DNA of 64,000 nt from Lachnospiraceae bacterium (GTDB lineage Bacteria > Bacillota > Clostridia > Lachnospirales > Lachnospiraceae). The stretch is from NCBI GenBank assembly GCA_021770755.1, contig JAETQI010000005.1, positions 62,001-126,000 of the forward strand, given 5' to 3'. This document shows, piece after piece, positions 22,211 to 51,130 of the stretch. Both the position numbers and the translations under genes were made by a program. The notes under the pieces were generated by a model, which saw only the letters and a program-made list of their open reading frames with translations, was not told where the DNA came from and did no database searches. Every line of letters starts with the position of its first letter. Position 1 is the first letter of the stretch.

Positions 22211-23263
22211 TTAACCCAGGAAATCCTTATCCGCATATGCAATTTTGTACCGCCCCCTGTTTTTCTCAAAATAGAACGTTATCAGTCGCTCTGCCAGAAA
22301 TCCCGGATAACGGTTCTGATAGACATCTTCACGCTGCCCACTATACTCCGCACAAGCAAAGAGAATCGGAAACAGCCAATTGCACATCCTGTCCAAGATC
22401 TCCTTTTTCATGATAAACATATTGCAGGGCGAGTAAAGGTTTGTCCGGAAGAATGCGAGGGATTCCTTGTAATCCTCTGGATACATCTTTTTTAGATAAT
22501 CCATCATAAAATCCCAATCCAATGCCACATGTCTTTCCTTATAATTTTGCGCAAGGTTAGGCGCCACATAGAGTGGAGTTGGTAGTATAACATCGATATG
22601 ATTGTCCCGCATGCTACAATGCCACTCCTCCTGCAGTAAGAAATGTCTACGGTAATGTTCGAGACCTACAACATCCTGATCCGCATTTTTCCAGATCCAG
22701 TACAGCGCTGTCAACTCACAAAACTGATGATTACGCCTAGAAATATTCTCGCCTGTATTATCTGTCAGTCCACAGATTCTCTTCTCTGTGAGTGCAGCTC
22801 CGACTTGAATCTCCCTATGCATTGCTGTTAATGGAATCTTCCGTAGCAATGACTTATCAGATACAGATCTCGCGACATAGATGCAAGCCGACTCCGAAAT
22901 GCAATCAAATCTATCATAGCTTCTACCCATCTCTGCATAATAAAGCGTCAGAAAACGATTGCGCAGCTCCATATCTAATTTGGGAGTCACCGGAATAATC
23001 TCTTTCATCTTCATCCGCTGAAGTTTTTGGGTCAAAATAGAATGATACACACAACGCGTTCCGAGATAGACAGGACATGTCCTGTCAAGAGCTGTCTTTT
23101 CATCGAAATAAATCACTGGTACTCCTTCAATCATATCGGCGTTCTTTTCTTCATTATCATACAGATACGCTCTGATCCTTATATCCGGGTATATTTTTGT
23201 GATATATACCCCTAATGTCTGTGCCCTCGAATGCGCACCGACAATATAAATACCTTGTCCCAT
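22211..23263 (-). CDS. Rossmann-like module fused to DUF4422 glycosyltransferase-like domain
   Basis: A 350-residue protein. Residues 1-100 are the cluster's recurrent nucleotide-binding-like module ([13 protein letters not shown], then [14 protein letters not shown] and a Rossmann-type strand pattern). Residues about 120-345 are a DUF4422 domain, known from capsule and exopolysaccharide loci and thought to be a glycosyltransferase; the characteristic [12 protein letters not shown] and [10 protein letters not shown] are present. The acceptor is unknown. AAGGAAA precedes the ATG. It lies immediately upstream of cysD. Confidence 0.8.
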
Positions 23264-23335
23264 TTTCCTTATCCCTCATACGCAATACAGCTAAAAATCA
23301 TATTTTCCTAACTGAATATGTAATTGATTTTTTCC

Positions 23336-24280
23336 TTATACATTGTCGCATTCAGTATATTTAGTATTCTCCTGATATATGCATTCTTCTAGGCGCCCCC
23401 TGTTAAAATATGCTGTATCATCCTTACTCCAGCAAATTTTCTCCCTGATTACTTTTGCCGGTGCTCCTGCAATGATCACATGGTCTCCAAACAGGCTCGA
23501 TGTAATTGCTCCTGCACCTACCACAGAGCCTGTTCCAATCCCAGCTCCTCCCAGAAGAGTTGCATGATAAGCAATCCAAACATGATCTCCCACAACGACA
23601 TCCTTCGCATAGTTAATCCGTTGATGTGTTTCCAGATCAAAAATATGATGTGCGTCATGAGTCCGTAACACTATCTGTGCTCCCAGCAAACAGTCTTTGC
23701 CTATCCGTATCCTAGCATTCGATACATGAAATCCTGCTCCTGTAATCTCTGTATTTTCACCAATGCTGCAAAAACCATTATTTCCAAACTTGATATGGAG
23801 TTTTCCTACTGAAACATCTTTTCCTATATGTAATGTATTATCGCTTCCCTGAAACAGGACTGTCAGTTGATCCGAAAGAGATTGATCAAAACGAATCTTA
23901 TTATTCTGTCTATCCTCATACATACCATCAGGGTAATTGTCTTTTAGCATCTTTCCATTCAGAAATATATTTGTCCCTATAACCTTGTCGACATGTACAT
24001 AATCAACCTTATTCAATCCCTCCAGATCCCTTTGGATTGACTTGTAGTTCCTTGCAGTTCCTGCAAAAATGATCAATAATGCATTTTCCAGATCTTGTAA
24101 GTCTTTTTTCTTTATCAATGCAATACCATCATATTCTTCCTCATCACTTTGATCCCATTTCCTGTCGCAGAGAAAATCTAACTTTACAATTTTTGAAAGC
24201 TCTTCTTTAGTCTTTTCATAATACTGTCCAATTCCGTAGCCTATGACCTTTGAATAGTTTCTACCTTCCTCTTCATACAT
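23336..24280 (-). CDS. Rossmann-like module fused to hexapeptide-repeat acyltransferase
   Basis: A 314-residue protein. The ATG at 24,280 has GGGGAG upstream and overlaps the end of the previous gene by eight bases. The N-terminal module (about 8-105) starts VIGYGIGQYYEKT and includes LDFLCDRKWD. The C-terminal half (about 150-300) is a left-handed beta-helix with hexapeptide repeats and an acetyltransferase active-site region (RTHDAHHIFD, HVWIAYHATLLGGAGIG, VVGAGAITSS). It probably O- or N-acetylates a sugar with acetyl-CoA. The fused module resembles the sugar-nucleotide-binding domain of PglD but is not closely matched. Confidence 0.8.
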   Translation of the reverse strand: MYEEEGRNYSKVIGYGIGQYYEKTKEELSKIVKLDFLCDRKWDQSDEEEYDGIALIKKKDLQDLENALLIIFAGTARNYKSIQRDLEGLNKVDYVHVDKVIGTNIFLNGKMLKDNYPDGMYEDRQNNKIRFDQSLSDQLTVLFQGSDNTLHIGKDVSVGKLHIKFGNNGFCSIGENTEITGAGFHVSNARIRIGKDCLLGAQIVLRTHDAHHIFDLETHQRINYAKDVVVGDHVWIAYHATLLGGAGIGTGSVVGAGAITSSLFGDHVIIAGAPAKVIREKICWSKDDTAYFNRGRLEECIYQENTKYTECDNV

Positions 24281-25607
24281 GTATGCTCTCCCCCTCATCC
24301 CCCAGAACGATGCCTGCAGCTATTTTCAGATTATCCACAATATAATCCGGTGTGACTCTATAACGTTCATCCTGTCCTCCCTGACCTGTCCGTAGCAATA
24401 TGGTCTTTGTTCCGGCATTCTTTCCCGTCTGTATGTCAACCGTGCTGTCACCTACCATATAGGAATTTTTCAGATCTATATTATATTTTTCAACCATCTG
24501 ATCCAACATACCTGTTGCCGGTTTGCGACAGTTGCACAGAATCTTATATGCCGGATCCTCCTCTATAAATCCCTTATCTGGATGATGCGGGCAGAATACA
24601 ATATCATCCAGATATGCGTTCTGTTCCCCCAAAAGTGTCTGCATTTTCCTGTGAATCTGCCTGATATCTTCTATGCTGCACATCCCGCGCGCCACAACAG
24701 GCTGGTTAGTGACCACGATTACAAGAAATTCTGAATCATTCAGCATACGGACAGCCTCGGCGGCATGTTCCTCCAAAACAAGCAGCTCCTCCTTATCTAC
24801 CAACCCGCAAAACTGATTCACCGTCCCATCCCGATCAAGAAATACACATTTTTGCCGATTTTCCAAATTTTTCTTTCTCCAGATTCCATCTGCCTGTTCC
24901 TTACAAACGGCTTGAAACCTAAAAATCGTTCCTGCATCCTTCATATACTCCGATGTTTTGTAACCAAATACCAGCCCTTTATCTATCAGTAGTTTCAACA
25001 GCCCCTGCTCCAGATCCATATACGCCGCTTTCTCCAAATATTGCAGGACACTGCAGGACAAAATAAATATCCCCGCATTCACACAGTTATCATACCATCC
25101 ATTCCTGATATTGTTCTTAGATCTAATTGCCGTCACACGCTGCATATCATCCAAAACAATCAGGTCCGAATCACCAGGGTGAGCGTTTGGATGCACCGCC
25201 AAAACAACTGCACCTTGTCTTGATTCATAGAAAGAAATCATCCTTTTCCAGTCTATATCAAACATAACGTCCGCATAAACAAACAGGATACTGTCCTCCT
25301 TCACCCCCATCTCCTTCAGATAATAAAGTGCTCCTGCCGACCCCAGCGGAGTTGTCTCATGTACGTATCGGATATGTACACCCAGCCTGCTCCCATCGCC
25401 AAAATATTCCTGTATCTTTTCGCCCAAATGCCCTGTAATGATCACAAAATCCAGGATTCCATAACGGCTTATATTTTCGATCTGCCACTGTATCATTGGC
25501 TTTCCATTCAGCAGAAGCATTGGCTTGGGAATATTGTCCTTTGTCAATTCCCACATCCTGGTTCCCCTGCCTCCGGCCTGTATCACCGCCATGTACTGTT
25601 TTTGCAT
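24273..25607 (-). CDS. Bifunctional heptose-1-phosphate guanylyltransferase / heptose bisphosphate phosphatase (HddC-GmhB-like)
   Basis: A 444-residue fusion; the ATG at 25,607 has GGGAAG upstream. The N-terminal nucleotidyltransferase (about residues 5-235) has AGGRGTRMWELTKDNIPKPM and the sugar-binding VNAGIF region. The C-terminal HAD-IIIA phosphatase (about 245-430) has FLDRDGTVN, VVTNQP, a zinc-binding CPHH...CNC set and GDSTVDIQTGKNAG, all as in GmhB. With HddA encoded 5 kb upstream it gives three of the four steps to GDP-D-glycero-alpha-D-manno-heptose (the isomerase GmhA is not in view). A histidinol-phosphatase-type substrate is possible but less likely here. Confidence 0.8.
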   Translation of the reverse strand: MQKQYMAVIQAGGRGTRMWELTKDNIPKPMLLLNGKPMIQWQIENISRYGILDFVIITGHLGEKIQEYFGDGSRLGVHIRYVHETTPLGSAGALYYLKEMGVKEDSILFVYADVMFDIDWKRMISFYESRQGAVVLAVHPNAHPGDSDLIVLDDMQRVTAIRSKNNIRNGWYDNCVNAGIFILSCSVLQYLEKAAYMDLEQGLLKLLIDKGLVFGYKTSEYMKDAGTIFRFQAVCKEQADGIWRKKNLENRQKCVFLDRDGTVNQFCGLVDKEELLVLEEHAAEAVRMLNDSEFLVIVVTNQPVVARGMCSIEDIRQIHRKMQTLLGEQNAYLDDIVFCPHHPDKGFIEEDPAYKILCNCRKPATGMLDQMVEKYNIDLKNSYMVGDSTVDIQTGKNAGTKTILLRTGQGGQDERYRVTPDYIVDNLKIAAGIVLGDEGESIHV

Positions 25608-25623
25608 ATATCTTCCCAACCTT

Positions 25624-26700
25624 TTACTTCCGCATTAATGCCCGTATCATACGAACATTTTCCTGTCGCATCTTTTTCTTTTCCAGCTTTTCACCTGATA
25701 CCCAGGAACCATCAAAATGGTGTATTGCATACGTATGTTCTGTCAGTTGGATCTCGCCCGTCACCAGATTCATAGGAGATAAAACTTCCACTGGATAAAT
25801 AGTCATTCCACTGACTTCCTGTTGACAGTTTCCATACTGCATACCCATATCCATCAAATCTTTTGTCTGCCAGATCGGGGAGATTGTCTCCGAAAAAAAC
25901 ATATCCTGATAACGTTCTAGCAGTTTCGCTATCACTGGATGCCCCGCCACTGCTCCAAAACCCAATCCCAAAGCTGCTTCCCCAGGCACTTCCATCCCAC
26001 AGAAAGCTTCATTGTACCTTAAATCTTCTATATTCCTCAAAAGTTCTACATCTGTATCCAGATAAAAGCCACCCTGTTCATAAACAATCTTCATCCTGAA
26101 ATAATCCGGCACAAACCCATACTTTTTCAGTTCATATGCCTGCCTAACAAATGCATTCTCATTTACATCACAGTTGGATTCGTTCCACTCCATAATCTCA
26201 TAATCAGGACAGTATCTATGCCAGCTTTCAATGCACCGCTTGTACAGAGCCGGCCGCACTCCTCCCCCAAACCAGCAGTAGTGAATCACCTTCGGTATTA
26301 AAGGACTTTCCTTTGTCCTGATACTAACCGGATTTCCCTCGCTCAGGGCAAACATAAAATAGTAAATATAGCACTCTGTCCCGTCAAGCTCCGATATTGC
26401 ATTTAACTGCTCCAGGATCTCCGCATAATAACTGCATGAAATCAATATTACAATCTCTGACAGATCCCCGCGCAGCAGTCCGCGAAGATCCCTGATGATA
26501 TAATCCCGTTCCCCTATTCGGAAACCTGTTCCTGTCTTTTTCGGATCATTATCCACAAGCATCCCTGTTTTTTCCACCCACGGATATTTTTTATGGTTTT
26601 TCAGCATCCGCTCAAAATCACAGCCAATTCCATAACAGACTATCTTCTTATCCTCGCATCGTTGAAAAAATGTCCTCATATCACAGTTTCTGACAATCAC
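25624..26700 (-). CDS. Rossmann-like module fused to GT32-type glycosyltransferase
   Basis: A 358-residue protein. The start is probably GTG at 26,700 (AGGGAG six bases upstream); an ATG at 26,679 is possible. The module occupies about residues 15-120 (IVCYGIGCDFERML, then MLVDNDPKKTG). The glycosyltransferase part (about 130-340) has IPKVIHYCWFGG, GFVPDYFRMKIVYEQGG and the DXD motif in FYLDTDVELL, as in OCH1/capsular GT32 sugar transferases. It probably transfers a hexose from a nucleotide sugar in the cytosol. It overlaps the previous gene by 20 bases. Confidence 0.82.
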   Translation of the reverse strand: MIVRNCDMRTFFQRCEDKKIVCYGIGCDFERMLKNHKKYPWVEKTGMLVDNDPKKTGTGFRIGERDYIIRDLRGLLRGDLSEIVILISCSYYAEILEQLNAISELDGTECYIYYFMFALSEGNPVSIRTKESPLIPKVIHYCWFGGGVRPALYKRCIESWHRYCPDYEIMEWNESNCDVNENAFVRQAYELKKYGFVPDYFRMKIVYEQGGFYLDTDVELLRNIEDLRYNEAFCGMEVPGEAALGLGFGAVAGHPVIAKLLERYQDMFFSETISPIWQTKDLMDMGMQYGNCQQEVSGMTIYPVEVLSPMNLVTGEIQLTEHTYAIHHFDGSWVSGEKLEKKKMRQENVRMIRALMRK

Positions 26701-28204
26701 TGCATTCTCCCTTCATATACATCTCACTGAAAATATCAAGCCGGATAATTTTTTCCTCATCCAGAAACAGTTCATAGACAAGCTTTTGCTTGATCGGCAT
26801 ATGATACTGCTCCGTCGTGATAACCAGATAGTCAAACTCCAGTGCCTTCAACATTTCCGGCGGAATGATCTGCATTCCGGCGTACGTTTTCCCCCATTTA
26901 TCCGGATCATTGTCTGATACCCCCAGCACCTCATAGCCTACATGGTTACAGATTCCCAGCTCTTTTATGTAATGTGCACACACAGAACCAGCCCCGAAGA
27001 AAACTACCCGGATGCGGTATTCCCCTTCCTCACAGATACCATGTATGACATCCTCGAGAATCCGTCTGCCACATAAGCCGTCCAGAAACGGTAGTGCCTT
27101 CCTGACTGCCGCACACTGCCTGTCCAAACAGTCCCACAATGCACCTTCACGGAATTTTTCAAGAAATGCCGCCATGTCCCCGGCTGTATTTCCATGGACA
27201 TAAGTATCCACGATACATCTGACTGCCGCCGTCAGTGGTTCCCTGTAATCCCGGTTCTCCATATATAATACAGGTACACCGACCAGTCCTGCCTCCACCA
27301 TCAAAGCGCTGCGGTCTGCGATAATGGCGTCCGCGTGGTACAGGGATCGCCTGTAATCCGGTGATAAATCAATGACAGCATTCGAGACTGTTTCCAGATA
27401 CTGAAACAACTGCCCTGCCTCCTGCGCCAGTACCTGAGGAAGCGTCTCCGAAAAGAACAGCGGATGCGGCATCACCACAAAAAATAAGTCCTCAAAACCA
27501 GCCAGCATTTTTGCAAAGCGGATGTATTCCGACAACTCCGGCGTCACCTGCAGCTGCCGGATGCCATCATAGATCCGTTTTGGAAAATGAAGTTTCCAGA
27601 CCACAATTTTCCTGCCAGCAGCCTTCCTTTTGATTCCCTCATCTATTTGCAGTCTATTCTTATAAACAGCATCAAACTTCGGTGAGCCTGTTGCCCTGAC
27701 AGCATGGCGGTTCGGGCAGTATTTTTGATAATCCGCTAACATTACATCTGAAAAGGTATAGATCCTCCAGCTATTCCTTACCACATATGTATGAAAATGT
27801 GCAAGACGTGCATCCTCCGTGTCCGAAAGTTCTATTCCATATGGAATGTACATAATCCGTATCCCCTTAGCCCGCAGGTGGACAGAGAGCGCTGACGGAT
27901 TGCGGTACAGCACGTCATAAGGCGGTTGGTATAATGCCACATGGGGATGGAACTGTTCTAATTTTTCTTCCGAATAAATCTCGTATGGCAGGTGATTCTC
28001 CTCCAAAAAGGCTGTCGTGCCCTCCATCTGTACCTTTTCCACCGAAAGATCATCAACATAGTATATTCTGACACTGATATCATCAGCCGCTACACATTCC
28101 TGATAAAAGCTTTCTATCGAGACCCAGTAGGATGCCACCTGAAACATGATCGCAACCCTGATCTTCTCACCAATATGATGCGGAATATAGTACTGCTTCT
28201 TCAT
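26681..28204 (-). CDS. CDP-glycerol glycerophosphotransferase-like GT-B protein with C-terminal Rossmann-like module
   Basis: A 507-residue protein; the ATG at 28,204 overlaps the preceding stop (ATGA) and has AGGAA upstream. Residues about 20-375 resemble the TagF/CDP-glycerol glycerophosphotransferase fold: GSPKFDAVY, VVWKLHFPKRI, then SPDYRRSLYHADAIIADRSALMVEAG, the usual donor-binding helix region. Here the module is at the C-terminus (about 395-500: VVFFGAGSVCAHYI, GVSDNDPDKWG, FDYLVITTE). It may add glycerol phosphate or another phospho-polyol to the glycan; the exact donor is not shown. Confidence 0.72.
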   Translation of the reverse strand: MKKQYYIPHHIGEKIRVAIMFQVASYWVSIESFYQECVAADDISVRIYYVDDLSVEKVQMEGTTAFLEENHLPYEIYSEEKLEQFHPHVALYQPPYDVLYRNPSALSVHLRAKGIRIMYIPYGIELSDTEDARLAHFHTYVVRNSWRIYTFSDVMLADYQKYCPNRHAVRATGSPKFDAVYKNRLQIDEGIKRKAAGRKIVVWKLHFPKRIYDGIRQLQVTPELSEYIRFAKMLAGFEDLFFVVMPHPLFFSETLPQVLAQEAGQLFQYLETVSNAVIDLSPDYRRSLYHADAIIADRSALMVEAGLVGVPVLYMENRDYREPLTAAVRCIVDTYVHGNTAGDMAAFLEKFREGALWDCLDRQCAAVRKALPFLDGLCGRRILEDVIHGICEEGEYRIRVVFFGAGSVCAHYIKELGICNHVGYEVLGVSDNDPDKWGKTYAGMQIIPPEMLKALEFDYLVITTEQYHMPIKQKLVYELFLDEEKIIRLDIFSEMYMKGECSDCQKL

Positions 28205-29157
28205 AAACACACATTCCTTTCTCCCAGAACACCCCGGATCGTCTTTCTCACAGCCTCGTCCGATGTGTATCTGGCGCTCCATCCGGCTTTATGAATCTTG
28301 TCTGCACTGTAACAGAACCGTGGGACATCCCCCCTCCATCCGCCTTCTCCCCCTGTATACTGATATACCACATCCGTAAGCCCCATCTCCTCGCAAAGCA
28401 TATCCGCTATCGCAGTAACGCTGGTCTCCCCTGATACACCCACATTATAAAGAGCAACCCCGGACGCCGGCGTTATCATAAACCGCAATATGGCATCTGT
28501 CAGATCTTCTATGAATATATACGGTTTTGTCTGCCTACCGTTTCCAAGAATTTCCAGTCGAGATGGATTGATCCCCAATTTTTGTATGAAATCAAATATG
28601 ACGCCATGCGTCAGCCCCGGTCCTATTACATTGGGAAAACGGAATACCAACGAATGTATATCATTCATATACGAATATGCACTAACCAGCGCCTCGCATC
28701 CCAGCTTAGCCGCACCATAATAGGATATCGGAGACAGATCCGGCGTATTCTCATCCAGCACTACGCCTCTCTTATCCCCATACACTGCAGAAGTAGAAGC
28801 AAAAAACAAATTCTTCACATGGTACTTTCTCATACAATTCAGCAGTTCATATGTCGTAGAGTACGTATTGCGATACTCCACATCGGGATTCGCCGCACTT
28901 GCCCGTATATCTGAATTTGCCGCCATCTGAAAAATGTATTCCGGTTCCTCCACCTCAAATATCTGTTCCAGCCTTTCCCTGTCTGTAATATCCGCCTCAT
29001 ACAGACCAAACGCTTTCACAGACATCAATGGTTCGATACCGGCCCGCGTACCAAGTGAAAAGTTATCCACGCACACCACCCTGTGTCCTGCATGAATCAA
29101 CTCCCTGCACAAATGACGCCCTATAAAACCAGCACCGCCAGCAACCAGCACCCTCAT
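28201..29157 (-). CDS. NAD-dependent sugar-nucleotide epimerase/dehydratase
   Basis: A 318-residue extended SDR enzyme. The ATG at 29,157 is preceded by a perfect AGGAGG seven bases upstream. It has the Rossmann loop GGAGFIG near the N-terminus, a TSAVYG strand and the catalytic YYGAAK (Tyr-x-x-x-Lys). The core resembles UDP-glucose 4-epimerase and related NDP-sugar 4-epimerases. The substrate is not determined by the motifs; a GDP-heptose or UDP-hexose intermediate would fit. It is coupled to the downstream glycerophosphotransferase-like gene. Confidence 0.85.
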   Translation of the reverse strand: MRVLVAGGAGFIGRHLCRELIHAGHRVVCVDNFSLGTRAGIEPLMSVKAFGLYEADITDRERLEQIFEVEEPEYIFQMAANSDIRASAANPDVEYRNTYSTTYELLNCMRKYHVKNLFFASTSAVYGDKRGVVLDENTPDLSPISYYGAAKLGCEALVSAYSYMNDIHSLVFRFPNVIGPGLTHGVIFDFIQKLGINPSRLEILGNGRQTKPYIFIEDLTDAILRFMITPASGVALYNVGVSGETSVTAIADMLCEEMGLTDVVYQYTGGEGGWRGDVPRFCYSADKIHKAGWSARYTSDEAVRKTIRGVLGERNVCL

Positions 29158-29238
29158 CCTGCCACCTCCTGTAATCAAACATGGATCCTCACATTTACAG
29201 ACGTTTCCTGCATCTGTTCAGGATTCTTTTGCATTGCC

Positions 29239-30312
29239 CTACGGTACTGCATATAAAACGGTTTCAAACTCTGAGTTCGAATAATGCCTTACATACAGCC
29301 TGTACTCTGGAACCAGTTCCCTGAAATACAACGGTATCGCGACCATATCCTCCGGCTTGTGGTAAATACACACTGCACATTTTGGTTTATCTCTCTGAAT
29401 CACGTTTTTTGCCCCCTTCAATGCTTCCAGCTCGGAGCCTTCTATATCCATTTTTATAAATGTCACCTTATCATTATCCTGTATTGTCTCATCGATCGAT
29501 ACTACATCTATGACGCTTGACCCATTTTCCGCAATCCGGGAACCGCAGCTTGCAAATGCATTAAATTTCAGGTTTGTCCGCCTGCTCCAGACACCCTGTT
29601 GGAACAGGACAGTTTCAGGGAGTCTGTCATGTTCTATTTCTCGTTTAACCAGGCACTCCCTGTAATTGTCAGGGTCAGGTTCAAACGCGTACACCTTTTT
29701 TAGTCCAGGACAGAGCCCTGCCAACTCGACAGTTGTAGACAAATCCTTGCATCCCGCATCGACAAACACCTCGTGGTCTGAATAATTGAGAAAATCTTCA
29801 AAATATGTATTTCCCGAACAGGTTGTCAGATAGCTACGCACATCATAAATAAACTTTTTATCCATCCCGTTTCCCAGCAGATATCTGCCGATCTCCCCTC
29901 CGTACTGGCGCGAACAGACAATGACACATACCTTCTCCATTTTCAGCAGCTCGTCAGGACTGATCACCTTATATCCGTGGAATCCGGTTCTTTGTTTTTC
30001 CTTGTCCCTGTCACAGAATCCCCAGAAATTATCAATTCTGTACAGGTGCTTTAGGACTACCTCTGCATCCTGCCCGGCACCATACAATACGATCCGCCTG
30101 TCTCTGGGTAAATTGCCAAACAGATATGACAGCCCTTTTGTCCTGTCATATACCGGAAGTCCCGGAAAACAACGGCTGACAATATTTTCTATATACCACA
30201 TCTCCCCTGTGAGAAGATAATTTAACTTGTTGATATAGACAAATCTCGATTCTTCATCTTCCAACATTCCATAAATTTTTCTGATATCATTCAGCAAAGA
30301 TGCCGTATTCAT
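29239..30312 (-). CDS. Rossmann-like module fused to FkbM methyltransferase
   Basis: A 357-residue protein. The module is at about 68-160 (RRIVLYGAGQDAEVVL, FCDRDKEKQRTG, VCVIVCSRQ). The FkbM-type SAM-dependent O-methyltransferase follows (about 175-350), with EVFVDAGCKDLSTT, VYAFEPDPDNYRECL, VSIDETI and FIKMDIEGSELEALKGA. FkbM domains usually methylate a sugar hydroxyl. A GAGGAGG site precedes the ATG. It is one of three FkbM domains in the locus, all paired with the same module. Confidence 0.85.
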   Translation of the reverse strand: MNTASLLNDIRKIYGMLEDEESRFVYINKLNYLLTGEMWYIENIVSRCFPGLPVYDRTKGLSYLFGNLPRDRRIVLYGAGQDAEVVLKHLYRIDNFWGFCDRDKEKQRTGFHGYKVISPDELLKMEKVCVIVCSRQYGGEIGRYLLGNGMDKKFIYDVRSYLTTCSGNTYFEDFLNYSDHEVFVDAGCKDLSTTVELAGLCPGLKKVYAFEPDPDNYRECLVKREIEHDRLPETVLFQQGVWSRRTNLKFNAFASCGSRIAENGSSVIDVVSIDETIQDNDKVTFIKMDIEGSELEALKGAKNVIQRDKPKCAVCIYHKPEDMVAIPLYFRELVPEYRLYVRHYSNSEFETVLYAVP

Positions 30313-30349
30313 ACTTTACCTCCTCGTTAACTGACAGCTATTACCCTCA

Positions 30350-31336: not shown

Positions 31337-31366
31337 GCCTGTCTCTCCCCGATTGTCTGTCGTATA

Positions 31367-32569: not shown

Positions 32570-32575
32570 ATTCCT

Positions 32576-33823: not shown

Positions 33824-33855
33824 TTTATCCCCATATAGTAATTGTCTGTAATTTG

Positions 33856-34965: not shown

Positions 34966-34966
34966 A

Positions 34967-36193: not shown

Positions 36194-36219
36194 CACTTTC
36201 TCCCAGTCTGTGTCTCACA

Positions 36220-38245: not shown

Positions 38246-38251
38246 TTTTAC

Positions 38252-40637: not shown

Positions 40638-40721
40638 TGTATCCCGCCCCAATTCTACTACCTGTCTTCAAAATACTGTTCATTCCTAAATAAATATTCT
40701 TTAATATATTCTTTCGATTTA

Positions 40722-41201
40722 CTACAACATTTCATAAATTAAATCCTCAATTGAAAGAACAGGGCAGTCTACACGTCCTTGCAAATAATCCTGTATTTCA
40801 TCAAAAAAATAAAAAGCTGTAACTATAATTACATCAACACATGGCAACTCATCTTCTGGTCTGTACAAGCTTACTTCCGCAGAAAGCTTATCGGCATTGC
40901 GATCAATCGCATATATTACTTCGATATCATTTGCACCCAATTCTTCCAACAGATTTTCTCCCAAATAATGCATACCATAAATAGCAACGGTTTTATAGTT
41001 TTTTTCTTTTAAGTACTCTGCCATTGTTTTTCCTTCATTTCTTGCATACATCCATTTACTATATAAACTTAAAATTGCATTATTCTTCCGGTCTAGCTCT
41101 TTATACTTTGCAATTTTTACTCTTCCTACCTGAAATGCAGATATACCTCCTGTTATTATACCTGCTATTACCCCTAAACTTACTGCCATAATCTTTTTCA
41201 T
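40722..41201 (-). CDS. Membrane-anchored stand-alone Rossmann-like module
   Basis: A 159-residue protein; the ATG at 41,201 follows a GGGGAGGGG run. One N-terminal membrane segment (about 4-22, IMAVSLGVIAGIITGGI) precedes a short basic helical linker (about 30-60, with LYSKWMYARNEGKT) and the module (about 68-155: TVAIYGMHYLGENLLEEL, YAIDRNAD, VDVIIVTAFYFFDEIQD). No catalytic domain is attached. It is the only clear single-pass membrane protein among the glycan-modifying genes and could tether or seed an enzyme assembly; that is inference. Confidence 0.65.
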   Translation of the reverse strand: MKKIMAVSLGVIAGIITGGISAFQVGRVKIAKYKELDRKNNAILSLYSKWMYARNEGKTMAEYLKEKNYKTVAIYGMHYLGENLLEELGANDIEVIYAIDRNADKLSAEVSLYRPEDELPCVDVIIVTAFYFFDEIQDYLQGRVDCPVLSIEDLIYEML

Positions 41202-41231
41202 TTTGTCAGACCCCTCCCCTTCCATTCATTT

Positions 41232-42221: not shown

Positions 42222-42243
42222 ATTTATATATCTCCCTATCACC

Positions 42244-43488: not shown

Positions 43489-43523
43489 TTTCCCTTTACC
43501 TCTTTATCCAGAAACTCACCGCT

Positions 43524-45446
43524 TTAACACTTGTAAGCATATATCAGTCCCATATCACTGTTTTTATCACAGCAATGCCACGAAAATCCTGCACCGTCTA
43601 AATAATCCAGTAAGCGCTCCTTGCCTCTGTAATGCCATTCACACATAACAATCTTAAAGTTCTTCAATACTCCACTCTGAAAAAGTTCCTCCAGAATATC
43701 GTACTCTTCGCCTTCGCAATCCATTTTCAACACAAAATTCCCGCCTGTTTCTTTGTCCATTATCTGTCCAAATACCTCTGAGGCTTTTTTTACTATAATT
43801 TCCTCAGACACACTATTACCTGCATCTATCAACCCCCGTTTGTTATAATATTCAAATCCTTTTTCCCACCCGCACGGGGTTGTACTCTGCGCACAGCTCA
43901 TATCCATATTATATTGAATGATCCGTTTTTCGTTTAAACTGCTGATGCCATACTGAAAGATTTCATATTTATGTTCGCATATATCATTCTGCCTAAGATT
44001 ACTCTGTGCCATTGCAAACGTCGATTTAAAGGGTTCATATCCATAAACCTTTTTCACCTGCTTTCTATTCAGAAAGTATAATACGGTATCCCCAATATTC
44101 ATTCCTACATCAAAAACAATTTCCGATTTTTTATCTGCCAAGTGATAATCATAGATGTGCTCAGCCAACACCTCTTTCACATTATAAAACTGTTCACTAT
44201 TGACAATGTGAAGCTTACACCGCTCTTCCCCATACTCAACTTGCCATGTTCCATCTTCCTTTATAGAAATACTTTTTATGTAATCATATCCGAAACCAAA
44301 TTTGCAGCACCCAAGCATAATCTTGTCAGCGCTTACTTTATATACTCCCACAAGTTCCTTCGTAATCTTCATACATTCATTAATACTTTGCACCATGATT
44401 AAAATACTATCATAGCGATCCAGCCCATTTAAATCCTTTAACTTTATAATTGCTTTTCCTGCATAATATCCCTGTTTTTCCTTATCAATAAATGCTTCAA
44501 TATAATAATGTCTATTAATATCATTTTCATGCTTCCTGAAAAACTGACCGCATCCATATACTAATATTTTTTCCTGATTCCCGCTGTAATGATTAACCGC
44601 TGTACTATTTCCATACAAATTTACAAATGCTGTCTCTGTAGATTGCAGTATACCTGGAGTCCCGGGCAGGCAAAACTCTTTTTGGGGGCTGTCAGAAATT
44701 TCAACCTGAAATCTTTTTGTTTTCCCACAATGTGTACCTGTTCCATCCAATCCAATATTTTGTATCAATGACTTATATGGGTTAATGCAAATCCCTCTTT
44801 TTTCAATAACACACAATCCCCAAAAAACTGCCCACGAATCATTTATCCCTGCCACCTGGTCTAACAGCATCTTCTCGTAATCACTACCCCATATGGCCAT
44901 GTATCCGGATAAATTTTGATCATTTTTGATTCGTTTTAAAATACTATTGTCCGTATAATAATTTTTCCATCTATCCTTCCAAGTTCCCCATCCCCACGAG
45001 GATATGCGCCCACACCCATACACGTCAAACGTATCCTGTGGCAAATCAATTGGCCAGCTGTATCCTGACACAGCGTATACTCTAGGATCGCTTTGATATT
45101 GTTCAAGACATTGCACCATAAACTTCACAAATTCCCGGGCTGGTACACAGTCATCTTCCAACACAATAACTGCATCGCAATCTTCGAAAGCATAGTTAAT
45201 ACCAGACACTATAGAATCTGATAATCCTTTATTGTGATCCGACACAAATACTTCTTTTTTGCACCAGTCAATGCTTTTAATCAGACAGTTTACCGCATTC
45301 CATTCCTGAGGATCTTCATCTTGTTTCAAACCATCCTGAAAAATAATCAATTTGTCAGGCATCATCGTATTTTCTTTTAGATTTTTTATCACCTGTTCTG
45401 TATGAAAACTCCTGTTATAGGTAAATAATAAAATATCCGTTTTCAT
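43524..45446 (-). CDS. Three-domain fusion: GT2-like transferase, Rossmann-like module, FkbM methyltransferase
   Basis: A 640-residue protein. An N-terminal GT-A-like domain (about 1-280) has ILLFTYNRSFHTEQV and VIVLEDDCVPAREFVKF, and continues with YGCGRISSWGWGTWKDRW, as in sugar transferases of surface glycans. A central module (about 300-395) has KILVYGCGQFFRKHE, AFIDKEKQGYYAG, YDSILIMVQS. A C-terminal FkbM methyltransferase (about 440-635) has IVFDVGMNIGDTVLYFL, VYGYEPFKSTF and VLKMDCEGEEYDILEEL. One chain could add a sugar and then O-methylate it. AGGAGA precedes the ATG. The module acting as a central linker is unique in the locus. Confidence 0.82.
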   Translation of the reverse strand: MKTDILLFTYNRSFHTEQVIKNLKENTMMPDKLIIFQDGLKQDEDPQEWNAVNCLIKSIDWCKKEVFVSDHNKGLSDSIVSGINYAFEDCDAVIVLEDDCVPAREFVKFMVQCLEQYQSDPRVYAVSGYSWPIDLPQDTFDVYGCGRISSWGWGTWKDRWKNYYTDNSILKRIKNDQNLSGYMAIWGSDYEKMLLDQVAGINDSWAVFWGLCVIEKRGICINPYKSLIQNIGLDGTGTHCGKTKRFQVEISDSPQKEFCLPGTPGILQSTETAFVNLYGNSTAVNHYSGNQEKILVYGCGQFFRKHENDINRHYYIEAFIDKEKQGYYAGKAIIKLKDLNGLDRYDSILIMVQSINECMKITKELVGVYKVSADKIMLGCCKFGFGYDYIKSISIKEDGTWQVEYGEERCKLHIVNSEQFYNVKEVLAEHIYDYHLADKKSEIVFDVGMNIGDTVLYFLNRKQVKKVYGYEPFKSTFAMAQSNLRQNDICEHKYEIFQYGISSLNEKRIIQYNMDMSCAQSTTPCGWEKGFEYYNKRGLIDAGNSVSEEIIVKKASEVFGQIMDKETGGNFVLKMDCEGEEYDILEELFQSGVLKNFKIVMCEWHYRGKERLLDYLDGAGFSWHCCDKNSDMGLIYAYKC

Positions 45447-45502
45447 TTTTAGTTTTATCTCCTATATACTGATCTGCCCTATGAATGTATGATCAATTAT
45501 CT

Positions 45503-46432
45503 TCAAGCTACCCTCACATATATAACTGTACGGTTATATTTATTCATCGGCATATATCCCATTTCAACAAGAAATTTGCATGCCTCACTTTTGACAACAT
45601 CATATAGTGTCATTCCTCTCTGCTCAACCAGAATGCATCTGATCTGTACTTTATCCCAGTCAATTGAATGAAGCACACTAATCTCCATTCCTTCCACATC
45701 AATGTCTATAAAATCAATATCATAGACATTATATTCATCTAATATGGAATCCAAACGCCTGACAGGGATTTTCCTGATCTCAATCACATCACTCATATTG
45801 TTGATATCCTGTTTACAGAATGTATTCAGCGCATTTTCCCTAAAAACATAATATTCCATTTCCATTTCTGCATCCGAAATACCGCAATTGATGTTAATAT
45901 CTTCTTTCTTAACTGCTTTCAGGAGTTCATAGTTATTCTTATCCGGCTCAATATTGATTCCCCGCCATCCCCTTAAATAGGCCCAGTATGTATTGGAAAA
46001 TCGAAAAGGGTGATTCGCTCCAACATCAACATACACTCCTTTATTTTCCATCCCCCGAAATAACTCTTTTAAGTATACTTCTTCTCCATCCTGAGAGTAA
46101 ATTTGATTCATGTATCTTTCATTAATGGGTCTGATCATTCCGTTTCTGTTATCCCAAAAATACAAATACTTTATATCTACTTTATTCACAATGCACTGAT
46201 ACAACAGTTCTGATTCTGAAACCACTGTAAGTATTATTTTATCAATCATACCATCTTCGTAAAGTTTAAGCATTTTAGCAAAGCTGATTACGTTTATTCC
46301 GTTTATCACGGAGTTCTGTTTACCAATGTCATTATCACAAAACACAATTTTATCAGGATATTTTTCGCTCACAAATCTTTGAATTTTACGACCGTTGGCT
46401 CCCGCTCCAAACAATACAATTACTTTATCCAT
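45503..46432 (-). CDS. Rossmann-like module fused to FkbM methyltransferase
   Basis: A 309-residue protein; the ATG at 46,432 has GGAGA nine bases upstream. The module is at about 1-105 (KVIVLFGAGANGRKIQ, VFCDNDIGKQN, KIILTVVSESEL). The FkbM part (about 135-300) has GVYVDVGANHPFRFSNT, GINIEPDKNNYELL, VRRLDSILDEY and IDIDVEGMEISVLHSI. SAM-dependent sugar O-methylation is expected. It follows the decayed radical SAM gene directly. Confidence 0.83.
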   Translation of the reverse strand: MDKVIVLFGAGANGRKIQRFVSEKYPDKIVFCDNDIGKQNSVINGINVISFAKMLKLYEDGMIDKIILTVVSESELLYQCIVNKVDIKYLYFWDNRNGMIRPINERYMNQIYSQDGEEVYLKELFRGMENKGVYVDVGANHPFRFSNTYWAYLRGWRGINIEPDKNNYELLKAVKKEDININCGISDAEMEMEYYVFRENALNTFCKQDINNMSDVIEIRKIPVRRLDSILDEYNVYDIDFIDIDVEGMEISVLHSIDWDKVQIRCILVEQRGMTLYDVVKSEACKFLVEMGYMPMNKYNRTVIYVRVA

Positions 46433-46486
46433 TAATGATTCTCCTATATCAGCATCCTTTTTTACCATTGCTGAACCATCCGGTAT

Positions 46487-47216
46487 TTATTTCCAGTTGC
46501 AATTTTTGCAGCATGAAAATATCTCTCTCTTACCAGATAACAATTGTTTTTGTATATTTACCATTTCCTCGCTATCCAGCAAAGCTTTCAAAGACGTCTT
46601 GCATACATTCCCTAATCCATAAGAATGTCTGTTCATTATAAATATGAAAACAAATTGTCCCGTCAAACTTATCCTCTCCCAGTTCGCCTAATATCTTGTA
46701 AACTACCTTACTGGGCATTATTTTCTTTTCCTCTACACAGCCTGCCGGACATAACTTATGTACTGCCGCATAATTGCACAAATTGGAAAGCATTATAGCA
46801 ACTTCACTAATATTCCCATATAAATTTCCTGTACGTAAAAAATCTTCTATGTTACTGCTGACCCTCTTATTTTTTGTTCTTCATATTTTACAAACTTTTC
46901 ATTCCTATATGCACTTTTCTTCAACTTACACATTTCTTTATAGGTATAAACCTGATCACTTTCACCATCGTATATTCCTATAACCCGAAAATTATTCAAA
47001 CAGCAGCGACTGTATATTTCCTTCCAAAAGATACTCGTAATAATTATTTCTGTGTCATCACTAATATCTTTCATACCCCTAACCTGATACCCACCAACAC
47101 TCATTCCTATTAATTCTTCATTACTGTCCACAAAATAAACATCTTCGTATTTTGCTATATCCCCCGCAAACAAACATTCTTCCAGTGTTTCCTGCGCCAT
47201 ATAAACACAATTTCAT
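46487..47216 (-). pseudogene. Decayed radical SAM/SPASM gene with Rossmann-like module
   Basis: An ATG at 47,216 (GGTGGGG upstream) starts MKLCLYGAGNTGRMFV, the usual module opening. A frameshift at a G5 run (47,161-47,165) is needed to continue into IAKYEDVYFVDSNEELIG and EIIITSIFWKEIYS. A second shift at an A6 run (46,870-46,875) leads to SNIEDFLRTGNLYG, then the radical SAM-like LSNLCNYAAVHKLCPAGC. The middle Cys of the expected CxxxCxxC is replaced by Ala. A third shift and a large internal deletion near 46,575 jump to a SPASM-like tail CCKNCNWK ending at 46,487. Loss of catalytic core argues for a true pseudogene even if some single shifts were sequencing errors. Confidence 0.65.
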
Positions 47217-47255
47217 TTTGAATCCCCACCTACATTTATTTCTTAACAGCATCTA

Positions 47256-47675
47256 TTACAATAACTCCCACAGAGCAATCACATTGCTGCATCCTATCTG
47301 ATCAAGCTCTCTGTATATCTCCTTCCAAAATCCGACTGCCGTCACAACGATACATTTGTCCTTATAGGCACATAACTCCTGCCTTGACAATATCGGAATA
47401 CTCTCGAAATCATACTGTCCGGCAATGATTTTTTTATCCGTTACCCCGATTATCTTATACTCCTCTTTTAACGCTTCATATACCAGCAGATTACCTAATT
47501 CAGCGATACCATATACAATAATCTCATCGATCCCTTTTGTGCGCAGCTGTTTTAACGGAGAGTTTCCATTTAGAAGGCATCTGATCCACGCAAATGCCGT
47601 CATCATCTTATGATCCCATTCTCCCGACTGGCTTCCGCTTTGAACCGCTATATGCAATAATTCTTCTTTACTCAT
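47256..47675 (-). CDS. Stand-alone Rossmann-like module protein (soluble)
   Basis: A 139-residue protein; the ATG at 47,675 has GGAG six bases upstream. A helical N-terminal part (about 1-45, containing AFAWIRCLLNGNSPLKQL) resembles the linker of the membrane-anchored module protein at 40,722-41,201. The module itself follows (about 48-137: EIIVYGIAELGNLLVYE, GVTDKKIIAG, KCIVVTAVGFWKEIY). No enzyme domain and no membrane segment are present. It is placed directly after the amidotransferase gene. Function unknown; regulation or assembly of the other module proteins is a possibility. Confidence 0.6.
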   Translation of the reverse strand: MSKEELLHIAVQSGSQSGEWDHKMMTAFAWIRCLLNGNSPLKQLRTKGIDEIIVYGIAELGNLLVYEALKEEYKIIGVTDKKIIAGQYDFESIPILSRQELCAYKDKCIVVTAVGFWKEIYRELDQIGCSNVIALWELL

Positions 47676-47686
47676 CACATTCTCCA

Positions 47687-49486
47687 TCATGCACAATCAA
47701 TAACCGCCTTTTTCCACAAATAAGGAACAATCTTTCTCCAGATCCGCACTCCATCACGGAATGAAACCTCCTCTTTCTGAAGAAATTCATGAACGTCAAC
47801 ACATATATCCAAAGCATTGACCAGTTCACATTCCATAAAATCCTTAGAATGAATCGTATCTACCAAAAAGTCCCGCCATTCACCCCTAAACCAATCTGCT
47901 GTTGGCGGGTTAAATCCAATCTTCACTTTCCTTTTCAGTATTTCATCGCTCATAAAAGGAGCCGCCATATCTCTAACAATCGCCTTTGTATATCCATTTC
48001 TTGTCTTCGACGTCCATGGAATAGAAAAAGCAAAGCTTACAATACGATAATCCATAAAAGGCATTCGTATTTCCACACCACTTGCCATGCTAAATCTGTC
48101 ATAGCATCTTAACAAAGTCGGCAAAGTAGTATCATGTGTCTTCATGTACAATCGTTTGCCAAGCTCATCTAACTTTGTATAATTATCTTCATTAACCCGA
48201 AATCTGCTATTCTGTTTTAACTGATGTATTACCCGTTTTATTGCCATATCAGCAGTGACATCTTTATTAATACAGGCATCATTATATGTACGAATAATCT
48301 GATCAAACTGTTTGTTCCCTATTTTTGTGTCTGCACATACTGAAAATAAATCCTCGGGATAACCACCAAATAATTCATCAGCTCCGTGGCCATCCAATGT
48401 CACCTTAATTCCTGACTCCCGTATTTCACGATACGTCTGCATATACGGGATCGGATTAGACAAATACGGATCTTCACACATATATATTTCTTTTAACAGC
48501 TCGTTTACGCCAATTCGCGGAGTAATCGTTACTCGATTCACAGGAATCCCAACATAATGTGCCGCGATTTCCGCATACTTCGTTTCATCACATATTGTGT
48601 CAGGCATATGTGCAACAAATGCATGCTGCCAATCGTTGCTTTTTCGTTCCAAGTAATCTTCTGATACACATTTCATCGCGCCTGCCACGCAGCTTGAATC
48701 AATTCCTCCACTTAACGCTGTACCAACCGGCACATCGCTGCGCATCCTGATTTTACATGCGTCTAAAAATATTCCGCGAAGCAGTTCCGTCTGCTCATCA
48801 TATGTTGGAGGAACCTCCATTAAATGGTCCAGTGTATTCCACCATCTCTTTATACGAAATGTATTATGTTGCAGAACCGCACAATGTCCCGCAGCAAGTT
48901 TTGTAATTCCCATAATGGCACATTCATCCGTTGCTTCATATTCCATACAGCTTTTGTTCCAAAAGATTCTGACATTCGGTGTCCTTTTCCTCATAATCGG
49001 AAAAAAAGCTTTCATCTCTGATGCAAAATAAAAATTCCCATCTTGCTTATAGATATATAATGGTTTGACTCCGAATCTATCCCTGCTGAGAAATAATTTC
49101 TTTTCATAATCATCCCATATAGCAAGTGCCCACATTCCATTACATTTACTCTGAAGTTCTTCCCCCCACTCCATATATCCATAAAGTAATACTTCTGTAT
49201 CTGTCTGCGTCCTAAAATGATATCCTTTTGACTCAAGCTGCCTTTTGATTTCTATAAAATTATAGACTTCTCCATTATATACAATCCAGTAGCGCCCTGA
49301 TAAATCCTGCATGGGCTGGTTCGCGTTATTACTTTGATCAAGTATCGCAAGACGCGTATGTCCAAGTGTAATGCCATCCATCTGTCTGACATCCATACCG
49401 TCAGGACCTCTGTGATGCAGTCTCTTTACGCACTCAGCTGCCTTCCCATAATCAAGTTTCCCGACACAACCAAAAATTCCACACAT
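47687..49486 (-). CDS. Asparagine synthase (glutamine-hydrolysing)-like amidotransferase
   Basis: A 599-residue protein; the ATG at 49,486 is chosen because it places the catalytic Cys at position 2 (MCGIFGCVG) and GGAG lies upstream. The N-terminal class II glutaminase has HHRGPDG, HTRLAILD and YNGEVYNF. The C-terminal synthetase has the PP-loop SGGIDSSCVAG and GHGADELFGGYP. In housekeeping contexts AsnB makes asparagine; in O-antigen and capsule loci homologues amidate sugar acids. Its place inside the glycan operon favours the latter, for example a uronamide, but this is inference. Confidence 0.85.
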   Translation of the reverse strand: MCGIFGCVGKLDYGKAAECVKRLHHRGPDGMDVRQMDGITLGHTRLAILDQSNNANQPMQDLSGRYWIVYNGEVYNFIEIKRQLESKGYHFRTQTDTEVLLYGYMEWGEELQSKCNGMWALAIWDDYEKKLFLSRDRFGVKPLYIYKQDGNFYFASEMKAFFPIMRKRTPNVRIFWNKSCMEYEATDECAIMGITKLAAGHCAVLQHNTFRIKRWWNTLDHLMEVPPTYDEQTELLRGIFLDACKIRMRSDVPVGTALSGGIDSSCVAGAMKCVSEDYLERKSNDWQHAFVAHMPDTICDETKYAEIAAHYVGIPVNRVTITPRIGVNELLKEIYMCEDPYLSNPIPYMQTYREIRESGIKVTLDGHGADELFGGYPEDLFSVCADTKIGNKQFDQIIRTYNDACINKDVTADMAIKRVIHQLKQNSRFRVNEDNYTKLDELGKRLYMKTHDTTLPTLLRCYDRFSMASGVEIRMPFMDYRIVSFAFSIPWTSKTRNGYTKAIVRDMAAPFMSDEILKRKVKIGFNPPTADWFRGEWRDFLVDTIHSKDFMECELVNALDICVDVHEFLQKEEVSFRDGVRIWRKIVPYLWKKAVIDCA

Positions 49487-49504
49487 TTTTATCAACGCTC
49501 CGTC

Positions 49505-51130
49505 TCATAGTTCTTTAAAAAACTGAATTAACTTGTCTATATGCCTGTCTATATCCAATTCCTGTCTTGCCAGCACAGCCTTTTGTCTCCACTCTTCTTT
49601 ATGTTCCTGCAAATAATCTATATCCAGACGCTGCAAAGACATACGCACAACCGCCCCGTACTTGTCCAGAAAATCTACCTGTTTGCGCGGCATGATTGTA
49701 ACAACGGGAATCCCTGCATCAATAAAATCGTAAAACCTGTGGGATGCTGAATTTACATTCCCACTTCCATAATACTTACCTGTACCACATACAATTTGCA
49801 TATTCATGGGAATCTCTTTTCCCTCGGTATAAAATTCACATCCATAGTCGTAGTCCTGCAATCTATTGACCAACTGGCTATGCTCTACTTCCCAAAAAAA
49901 TCTTATGTTTGAATATTGCTCTTCTATTTGCTTAGCTTTCTCAAAATCTTCTTTACAATAATATCCAATAAAAATATCTAAAATACAGTTCTCTTTATTG
50001 CCCAATACATCTGCTATGTCATTTAACGAAGAAAATGTTTCATACCCATCAGGAACATCTCCCTTTTGCGAATAATACCCAAAAAAACCTTCCACATTAC
50101 AAAGCTTCAAAATCTTTTCATCTACCCGTTTTTTCCATTCATTATCTTTAATATATCCACCGCAATAATCATGAAACTGTATTGATTTCCCCTTATATGA
50201 AAATCCTTTTTCTTTCTCAAGATACTCTTTGGAAAACCATCTCCACACCACACCATCTGCATTTTCCAATGCATACTTTTCACTTGACAACAAGGCTGTG
50301 TCTTCTATGACACACCCATCATTCAACACATCATATAGCCCTAACACTATCGGTCTAAAATGCATTTTATAACGCAGCACAATTTCCAGCCAAATACAAT
50401 TTCCCCATATCGGTTGATAATAATATACTAATGGTCTATATTGGAGTGCGTTATACATCATTTCTTCTTCATCATTGCATCGAATATAAGATATGCCACG
50501 TTGATGCATCTCACTTGCAAATCCCTCCCGTAGCGATCCATATATTATTACAACAACATCATATCCTTTCTTTTTTAATGCCGCTATCATTTTTATATTT
50601 CTGGGAAGCAGCTGCCCTGTTATATATACAATCTCGTTTTCATTAAAATCACATCGCGACTGACAAGATATTACTTTCTCTTTAATATGCAGACCACTCT
50701 CGCCCGTATCAGGATTGTCATACATATGCTTTTTCATAATGTAGTCTGTAAACTTTTTGTAATCTAATCCTCGATAAAGCTTTATCATATTTTTATATGA
50801 TCTTATATAATCTGCTGCCACTATTACATTTTTAAATCCTGCTATTTGTGTATTAGCTATTATTTCATCTATATATTGACTTGTAACAGCAATCAAAACT
50901 GCTACCGTCTCTTTATCACACTGTATACCACTAATTTCTTTTACTTCTATATCCTCAAACCACTTTGTGTCCCTTAACTCTGAAACCGCAAAACAGATAA
51001 TTCTTTCTTGTAAACCACTTTTACACAATAAAGGATATATCCTTTCTGCAAACCAACCCGCACCATATATAATTATTTCTTCATATCCCTGCAAAACATC
51101 ATTCAAAATATAATCAAAAAACCGCATCAT
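49505..51130 (-). CDS. Rossmann-like module fused to GT-B glycosyltransferase
   Basis: A 541-residue protein. The module is at about 15-120 (EIIIYGAGWFAERIYP, CFAVSELRDTKW, AVLIAVTSQYIDEI). The remaining part (about 165-535) looks like a GT-B glycosyltransferase: an N-terminal Rossmann half (ENEIVYITGQLLPRN, YDVVVIIYGS) and a C-terminal half ending SASHRFYDFIDAGIPVVTIM, the donor-site helix of GT4-like enzymes. The donor is unknown. AGGACAGGG precedes two consecutive ATG codons. It is the right-most gene that carries the module in fused form. Confidence 0.75.
   Translation of the reverse strand: MMRFFDYILNDVLQGYEEIIIYGAGWFAERIYPLLCKSGLQERIICFAVSELRDTKWFEDIEVKEISGIQCDKETVAVLIAVTSQYIDEIIANTQIAGFKNVIVAADYIRSYKNMIKLYRGLDYKKFTDYIMKKHMYDNPDTGESGLHIKEKVISCQSRCDFNENEIVYITGQLLPRNIKMIAALKKKGYDVVVIIYGSLREGFASEMHQRGISYIRCNDEEEMMYNALQYRPLVYYYQPIWGNCIWLEIVLRYKMHFRPIVLGLYDVLNDGCVIEDTALLSSEKYALENADGVVWRWFSKEYLEKEKGFSYKGKSIQFHDYCGGYIKDNEWKKRVDEKILKLCNVEGFFGYYSQKGDVPDGYETFSSLNDIADVLGNKENCILDIFIGYYCKEDFEKAKQIEEQYSNIRFFWEVEHSQLVNRLQDYDYGCEFYTEGKEIPMNMQIVCGTGKYYGSGNVNSASHRFYDFIDAGIPVVTIMPRKQVDFLDKYGAVVRMSLQRLDIDYLQEHKEEWRQKAVLARQELDIDRHIDKLIQFFKEL

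Follow-up and report, generated by a model that had tools for sequence, protein, structure and literature searches.

A Rossmann-like module shared by many glycan-acting enzymes in a Lachnospiraceae locus and across the family

The analysed stretch of DNA (the window) comprises 64,000 nucleotides of the genome of a Lachnospiraceae bacterium (GenBank assembly GCA_021770755.1, contig JAETQI010000005.1, positions 62,001 to 126,000), and it holds a run of glycan genes in which one small domain, called here the module, recurs in 17 intact proteins. An earlier note had listed these open reading frames (ORFs), and all were present where it had placed them, including the one at 47,256. The module genes, as well as the PglD-type gene and the activated-sulfate genes mentioned below, lie on the reverse strand. 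Bit scores are those of a profile built from 134 module copies of other genomes, none from the source genome; this external profile is not fully independent, because the search that collected its copies was seeded with the window copies.

At the low-coordinate end of the run, the module is N-terminal in three proteins, accompanying DUF4422 (E 3.5e-51) in 22211-23263 (module 22961-23263, 18.4 bits, E 1.1e-4), a hexapeptide-type acyltransferase, with Hexapep under its cut-off, in 23336-24298 (module 23975-24259, 33.7 bits) and Gly_transf_sug in 25624-26700 (module 26344-26658, 22.6 bits). It is C-terminal in 26681-28282 (module 26723-27022, 57.8 bits), which has a weak Epimerase_2 match of 18.1 bits, under the cut-off, and occupies residues 69-162 ahead of an FkbM methyltransferase (Methyltransf_21, E 1.9e-15) in 29239-30312 (module 29827-30108, 60.5 bits). 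Two GT2 glycosyltransferases, 31367-32569 and 32576-33859, carry it at the C-terminus (31382-31675, 49.2 bits; 32579-32866, 55.4 bits). It is N-terminal again in a radical S-adenosylmethionine (SAM) protein, 33856-35076, whose true start may be an ATG near 34965 (module 34684-34968, 52.2 bits), in two sulfotransferases, 34967-36196, where the copy is divergent and borderline (35864-36142, 11.1 bits, E 0.022), and 36220-37482 (37144-37440, 42.7 bits), in 38252-39460 with SPASM and a weak radical SAM match (39098-39391, 49.5 bits), and in an NKWYS protein, 39405-40652 (40275-40598, 35.1 bits). The protein at 40725-41225 is a bare module (40725-41003, 58.4 bits) preceded by a hydrophobic N-terminus (hydropathy 2.18) and one long helix; no catalytic domain was found in it, and it has full-length relatives in three loci (L011-L013). 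Further on, the module is central in 43524-45446, with GT2 on one side and FkbM on the other (44298-44582, 38.0 bits), and N-terminal with FkbM in 45503-46468 (46139-46435, 36.0 bits). The gene at 46487-47217, which the note had called a pseudogene, is indeed broken: pieces of the module are succeeded by short ORFs that lie in different frames. The piece 46847-47200 reaches 30.2 bits with a profile that contains that piece itself. A second bare module (47259-47537, 50.6 bits), in 47259-47696, has a short N-terminal region without a hydrophobic anchor (hydropathy 0.64) and no Pfam match at E <= 1. Finally, a 541-residue protein with no catalytic type assigned, 49505-51130, bears an N-terminal copy (50798-51091, 41.0 bits).

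Profiles of the window copies built by leaving out one copy at a time recovered 15 of the 17, at 17-53 bits, whereas nothing outside the set exceeded 10.5, and missed those at 22,211 (6.4 bits) and 34,967 (3.4 bits). The external profile gave 22.6-60.5 bits to the same number of copies, the best shuffled sequence reaching 8.7. With it, the 22,211 copy is not separable from PglD-type relatives, because its score is close to that of the PglD protein at 57,908 (17.2 bits). Chance similarity is thereby ruled out, and judged from the profile scores the proposed recurrence of one module in 17 proteins is real, with 22,211 divergent and 34,967 uncertain. No Pfam family exceeds its own cut-off for any of the 17 modules, although Pfam names most of the catalytic parts. 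The described YGAG-type loop and Asp are among the most conserved positions of the module, but 34,967 lacks the YGxG loop (ILPMGG there), and the 22,211 copy has VGAH in the loop and no Asp.

Models were made for the copies at 32,576, using an alignment of 40 copies from the window and L011-L013, and at 40,722; for the remaining copies, therefore, the fold is assigned by sequence homology. The AlphaFold model of the 95-residue copy at 32,576 is confident, with a mean predicted local distance difference test score (pLDDT) of 94.1 and a predicted template modelling score of 0.84, and shows the order strand, helix, strand, strand, helix, strand, helix, strand, the protein ending with strand 5. 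The alternation of strands and helices together with the glycine-rich loop after strand 1 is that of a Rossmann-like fold, as modelled. The 40,722 model has a helix over residues 5-55. A Foldseek search of the PDB with the 32,576 model returned 2g6t first (E 1.1e-5, template modelling score 0.80, root mean square deviation 1.9), followed by Rex repressors and 3nkl and, lower, by VioB (E 4e-3), and no match at E <= 0.001 was obtained with the anchored 40,722 model. The sequence profile matched solved structures in a similar set: 3nkl (5.7e-11), VioB (2.1e-6), 2g6t (3.5e-6), Rex (8e-6) and KtrA (1.9e-5), then, weaker, a mycarose C-methyltransferase (0.0012), WbaP (0.009) and an FkbM protein (0.03).

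The fold and several relatives are known already, as are such domains on single types of enzyme. The PglD_N domain (PF17836) at 58259-58546, in the PglD/NeuD-type acetyltransferase at 57,908 (PglD_N E 7e-19; not counted as a module), had been proposed as the canonical relative. It is homologous, and five window modules match PglD_N weakly, but the best of the 17 window module proteins has 17.2 bits against a cut-off of 23.4; among 127 module proteins outside the window, five match it at E <= 1e-5, and two of one locus (L032) pass the cut-off (27.0 and 32.2 bits). PglD_N is the N-terminal domain of sugar acetyltransferases, and as closest relative it was rejected, 2g6t, Rex and 3nkl all matching better. 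The best fold match, 2g6t of Clostridium acetobutylicum, may be the protein behind C2185-like_N (PF22674), a guess from the names; PF22674 matches two window proteins weakly (15.6 and 13.6 bits), under its cut-off of 27 bits. The C-terminal domain of Methyltransf_14 (PF08484, cut-off 23.5 bits) likewise reaches 15.6 bits at best in the window. The Rex NAD-binding domain shares the fold, and the Rex-like ORF of the source genome, overlapped by the module match C7:49825-50016, scores 32 bits with the module profile; it carries the DNA-binding domain Put_DNA-bind_N, which is unlisted for the 17 window module proteins, whereas the scanned module proteins lack a DNA-binding domain and are located among glycan enzymes. 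The WbaP/PglF-type domain (PF13727), of which we take 3nkl to be a member, is also a Rossmann-like domain found on functionally unrelated glycan enzymes. Unlike the module, it is named for two enzyme types in the available part of the literature; the module is without its dimer hairpin, and PF13727 is unlisted at E <= 1 for the 17 window proteins.

The note had described a single glycan locus, which is too narrow, and a single freak locus was rejected by the matches in the source genome and in a sample of the family. At E <= 1, the source genome gave 34 matches, 18 in the window (the PglD protein among them) and 12 on contig C107, which holds a second locus. A later profile found 15 copies there, and two of these are bare and begin with a hydrophobic stretch. 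Among the carriers in this locus are WcbI and RgpF proteins and, as judged by eye, proteins of the FkbM, GT4, WbsX, HAD and GT11 types. Two large proteins of the second locus contain weak stretches that resemble the module: L010:9661-12045 has consecutive ones (5.2 and 1.3 bits) and no Pfam match at E <= 0.01, and L015:16285-18819 has one of 31 bits. Among 120 genomes of the family, one per genus, the module is present in 52 at E <= 1e-5, the richest genome having 30 copies, and at least 29 of 299 genomes in a sample of the phylum, the source genome included, have one at E <= 1e-8, the phylum counts being lower bounds.

Without the PglD protein, the 20 loci compared hold 167 module copies, distributed over 165 ORFs. 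A second part of at least 130 residues is present in 142 of these ORFs, and the catalytic parts fall into 45 single-linkage clusters, some of which are probably distant relatives of each other, since FkbM and GT2 types each occur in more than one. The claim of attachment to unrelated enzymes holds as regards the many different enzyme classes, but not all 45 clusters are unrelated. All the positions that the note had given for the module were seen, and free-standing copies in addition: 73 are N-terminal, 65 C-terminal and four central, and 23 ORFs have no long second part, two of these being the broken-gene piece and an ORF split at the junction of two stretches.

For the carriers and their neighbours, the Pfam tallies given here cover the first 25 families (of 27, 36, 90 and 101), and one protein can match several. 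Among the families listed, the 127 module proteins outside the window include 34 with GT2, 12 with radical SAM, seven each with FkbM and group-1 transferases, six with RgpF, four each with WbsX, GT8 and WcbI, three each with NKWYS and DUF4422 and two with MptE-like, besides others. The comparison set consisted of 180 non-module genes, from which five on the other strand were dropped and L037:15387-16196 was left out as well; the 174 scanned, with L010:9661-12045 counted among them, are led by Epimerase (12), NTP_transf_3 (11), GDP_Man_Dehyd (10), GT2 (10), Polysacc_synt_2 (8) and IspD (7). GT2 is thus enriched on module proteins (34/127 versus 10/174, p 6e-7). Epimerase, with 12/174 in the neighbours, is not among the families listed for the module proteins, where up to two could occur, and the depletion has p 0.0016 at zero and 0.049 at two. 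From these tallies, GT2-rich for the carriers and rich in Epimerase and NTP_transf_3 for the neighbours, the module is a mark of glycan-acting enzymes, although it is missing from some adjoining glycosyltransferases. The carriers belong to about twenty Pfam families, including glycosyltransferases, methyltransferases, sulfotransferases and radical-SAM enzymes, while nucleotide-sugar-making families are absent from those listed for module proteins. Hence the suggestion that the module binds a nucleotide sugar is weakened in so far as it means each enzyme's own donor, and binding of that donor was rejected as the common role.

The module-rich genomes also share flagellin. In the family sample, flagellin is present in 62 of the 120 genomes, namely in 41 of the 52 module-positive and 21 of the 68 other genomes (p 1.7e-7), and it is found in all 22 genomes with at least three copies (p 6e-8) and in 19 of the 30 with one or two; in these p values, kinship is handled by taking one genome per genus alone, and genome size and motility lineage are otherwise ignored. 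By eye, a cluster of modules and a flagellin gene are no more than 40 kb apart in at least 10 of the 22 module-rich genomes (G016, G023, G033, G045, G071, G072, G087, G095, G102 and G111), where the chance rate of 0.1 for such linkage is our own estimate. Two PF01973 proteins of G016, a family that we take to cover the Maf flagellin transferases, carry the module. The source genome has 18 Flagellin_N matches, some partial, on contigs C114, C103, C107, C86 and C63, the one on C107 about 60 kb from the modules. Several of them are terminal on their contigs, an indication that the assembly is interrupted by near-identical flagellin genes. On C114, flagellins are accompanied by FliD, FliS and two GT2 genes with TPR matches, one over the cut-off and one weak. 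Of four GT2 proteins encoded next to flagellin, two match TPR above the cut-off and two weakly, and none carries the module; in the available part of a Clostridium survey, GT2 with TPR is a sign of flagellin transferases (PMC13317340).

It could be imagined that the module recognizes a common part of the substrate (the core glycan, its carrier or flagellin) and brings all the tailoring enzymes to it. This would fit a small domain fused to many kinds of enzymes that is also free-standing, as well as carriers acting on the glycan rather than making precursors. The four GT2 proteins, likely to contact flagellin, would then be expected among the carriers, however, and the conserved surface described below looks shaped for a nucleotide and not for a glycan or a peptide, so we regard such recognition as quite unlikely.

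The cleft and similarity counts omit the PglD protein and the broken-gene piece. Over 166 copies, the most conserved positions are an aromatic-G-x-G-x-x-G/A loop and the Asp closing strand 2: the first glycine is kept in 97%, the second in 81%, G or A at the third position in 79%, the aromatic preceding the first glycine in 92% and the Asp in 78%. The most conserved surface is, on this alignment, the usual nucleotide-type cleft. Such conservation is what would be expected if the module bound a small nucleotide (a uridine nucleotide, NAD or similar) and switched its own enzyme or homodimer, so that a single metabolite would synchronise the pathway with no mixed complex, and we consider this possible, if somewhat unlikely. 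All four cleft features are present in 62 of 144 enzyme modules. If Glu is accepted in place of Asp, they are present in 10 of 11 modules of the cluster that contains 33,856 and other radical-SAM proteins. Among the structures similar in fold are Rex bound to NAD and VioB together with a nucleotide sugar. The other 82 enzyme modules, however, lack one or more of these four features, and the Asp, kept in 108/144, is absent from whole clusters (Asp or Glu in 0/6 RgpF copies and 0/4 of the DUF4422 cluster of 22,211). A strand-2 ending without Asp recurs across enzyme classes, the window modules 36220, 38252 and 49505 having Val or Ile followed by Ser there, and it may mark a second ligand type.

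The bare copies speak against such a switch, as they have no enzyme to regulate. Their Asp is kept in 22 of 22, all four features in 10 and both glycines in 10 (119/144 in the enzyme modules); the second glycine is missing in 12, yet the bare copies are the most conserved ones. Across loci, the bare copies are the most alike, with a mean identity of 35%, partly due to three loci fetched by likeness to a bare copy, versus 18% between unlike and 20% between like enzyme classes. They occur in 12 of the 20 loci, or 9 of 17 without the three loci so fetched, and 14 of 21 have a hydrophobic N-terminal stretch (mean hydropathy of at least 1.39 over 17 residues). In the similarity and cleft counts, the first ORF of L019, a segment of a longer ORF that spans two stretches, is included among the bare copies, and the per-locus bare counts exclude it; L027:15000-15323, truncated by the end of its contig, was counted as bare throughout.

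Our leading, still tentative, reading is that the module is not itself catalytic but assembles enzymes in trans, with a cleft tuned by a nucleotide. It is favoured because of the WbaP domain, the nearest relative found with experimental data, because bare, often anchored, copies exist without an enzyme, and because the carriers share mainly the glycan. Each copy would be a compact Rossmann domain of a large group to which PglD_N, Rex, the N-terminus of 2g6t and the WbaP/PglF-type domain also belong, and copies would have been shuffled onto enzymes that work on one growing glycan, most likely cytosolic and destined for flagellin. By pairing with each other or with a common partner, the modules would hold glycosyltransferases and decorating enzymes together, the bare copies, present in roughly half of the loci and mostly with a putative membrane anchor, could act as tether, and the glycine loop and aspartate may hold a nucleotide that tunes assembly, as uridine monophosphate (UMP) is thought to do in WbaP. 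According to the available text on WbaP, its domain makes most of the contacts between chains and is implicated in uridine-nucleotide binding; it is stabilised by UMP and by uridine di- and triphosphate (UDP, UTP) and destabilised by UDP-galactose (UDP-Gal), and UMP inhibits the full enzyme (PMC10942596). For EpsZ, a model places a regulator on the enzyme's cytoplasmic portion, and the regulator raises contact between these domains, as far as the accessible part of that study goes (PMC12802240). Stabilisation of the WbaP domain by UMP would equally suit the nucleotide switch considered above. Since dimerisation is known for the WbaP-type domain and the position of the module varies freely, the module might also merely dimerise each enzyme and have been spread by recombination in hypervariable islands, its cleft being a folding constraint. 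This would leave the bare copies, the bias towards glycan-acting enzymes and the conserved strand-2 Asp unexplained, and we think it highly improbable.

Several observations weigh against assembly by the module. Conservation peaks in the ligand cleft and not in an obvious outside patch, and the beta-hairpin that makes nearly all of the contact in the WbaP domain is absent, the 32,576 protein stopping at strand 5. The hydrophobic N-terminus of 40,722 has no confident model (pLDDT under 50 in the first 18 residues). Bare copies are missing from the analysed stretch of 8 of the 20 loci, and in 9 of the 22 module-rich genomes a 40,722-type profile has no match at E <= 1e-10; an anchored hub therefore cannot be general, and an obligatory one was rejected. 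Module similarity tracks the enzyme class (reached in 0 of 1000 permutations), which would also suit a switch of individual enzymes, and not the locus (67 of 1000); locus-specific signatures were thus not clearly found in these permutations, and matching of partners specific to a locus is not clearly indicated. As for flagellin, 11 of the 52 module-positive genomes have none, and 12 of the 22 module-rich genomes have none within 40 kb among the matches listed, several of them on short contigs. Because the window contig (133 kb) has no flagellin match, a flagellar role for the window locus itself is one that we infer. The most likely context is glycosylation of flagellin or another cytosolic glycosylation. 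Docking between modules may still occur.

Other genes of the window were noted as well. Activated-sulfate genes at 19345-22269 (APS_kinase/GTPase, 19345-21195; a PAPS_reduct-type, cysD-like gene, 21262-22269; Pfam) adjoin the module run, and the C107 locus adjoins a second such pair, L010:16818-18719 and L010:15823-16746, to which they are 93% and 97% identical; each pair of the source genome thus adjoins one module-rich locus. A protein of the type of 51154-52398, about 400-415 residues long, is present in three module loci (relatives L009:9342-10589, E 4e-7, and L037:10329-11534, E 5e-12), the window one having no Pfam match at E <= 1e-5. A dynamin-type GTPase (60569-62569; Dynamin_N E 7e-22) lies within the run of sugar genes, and the probable surface protein of 1,891 residues encoded at 4626-10301 contains leucine-rich and InlB B-repeat domains. 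A MatE gene is found at 11123, about 7 kb from the sulfate genes. The check for a surface-polysaccharide locus used the PF01943 flippase, polymerases and ATP-binding cassette exporters being outside the search; the PF01943 matches of the source genome are on other contigs, and the window contig ends 7 kb past the window. As a control, flippase presence was discarded, since 120 of 120 genomes were positive.

With regard to systems already described, the organisation resembles that of the recognition element of ribosomally synthesized and post-translationally modified peptides, a small leader-peptide-binding domain of another fold that is found on many tailoring enzymes and also free-standing. 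The analogy is one of organisation alone, as the pathway differs. The flagellin glycosylation islands of Clostridium and Geobacillus are, in the available text, hypervariable glycan loci near flagellin with GT2-TPR, Maf-type and FkbM proteins, and no shared module is described there (PMC13317340, PMC5109656). In line with the note, which knew of no system using one module on so many enzyme classes, no account of an island in which many glycan-acting enzymes carry a common module was found in the open-access literature, consulted mostly as titles and starts of abstracts; it may be described elsewhere.

The authors of the WbaP study, in its available part, found it puzzling that two functionally unrelated glycan enzymes have such a domain in common (PMC10942596). 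With a related domain on about twenty Pfam families of glycan enzymes, this puzzle therefore becomes testable in many natural combinations. If the module assembles or synchronises enzymes, it would help to explain how variable flagellar glycan islands swap enzymes yet function, and it could serve as a tag for building glycan pathways. More broadly, though this is rather doubtful at present, the module might be a general recruitment code, nucleotide-gated and carried by most flagellar-glycan enzymes, with free and membrane-anchored copies as hubs; if so, whole decorating pathways would be assembled, swapped and switched via a common interface.

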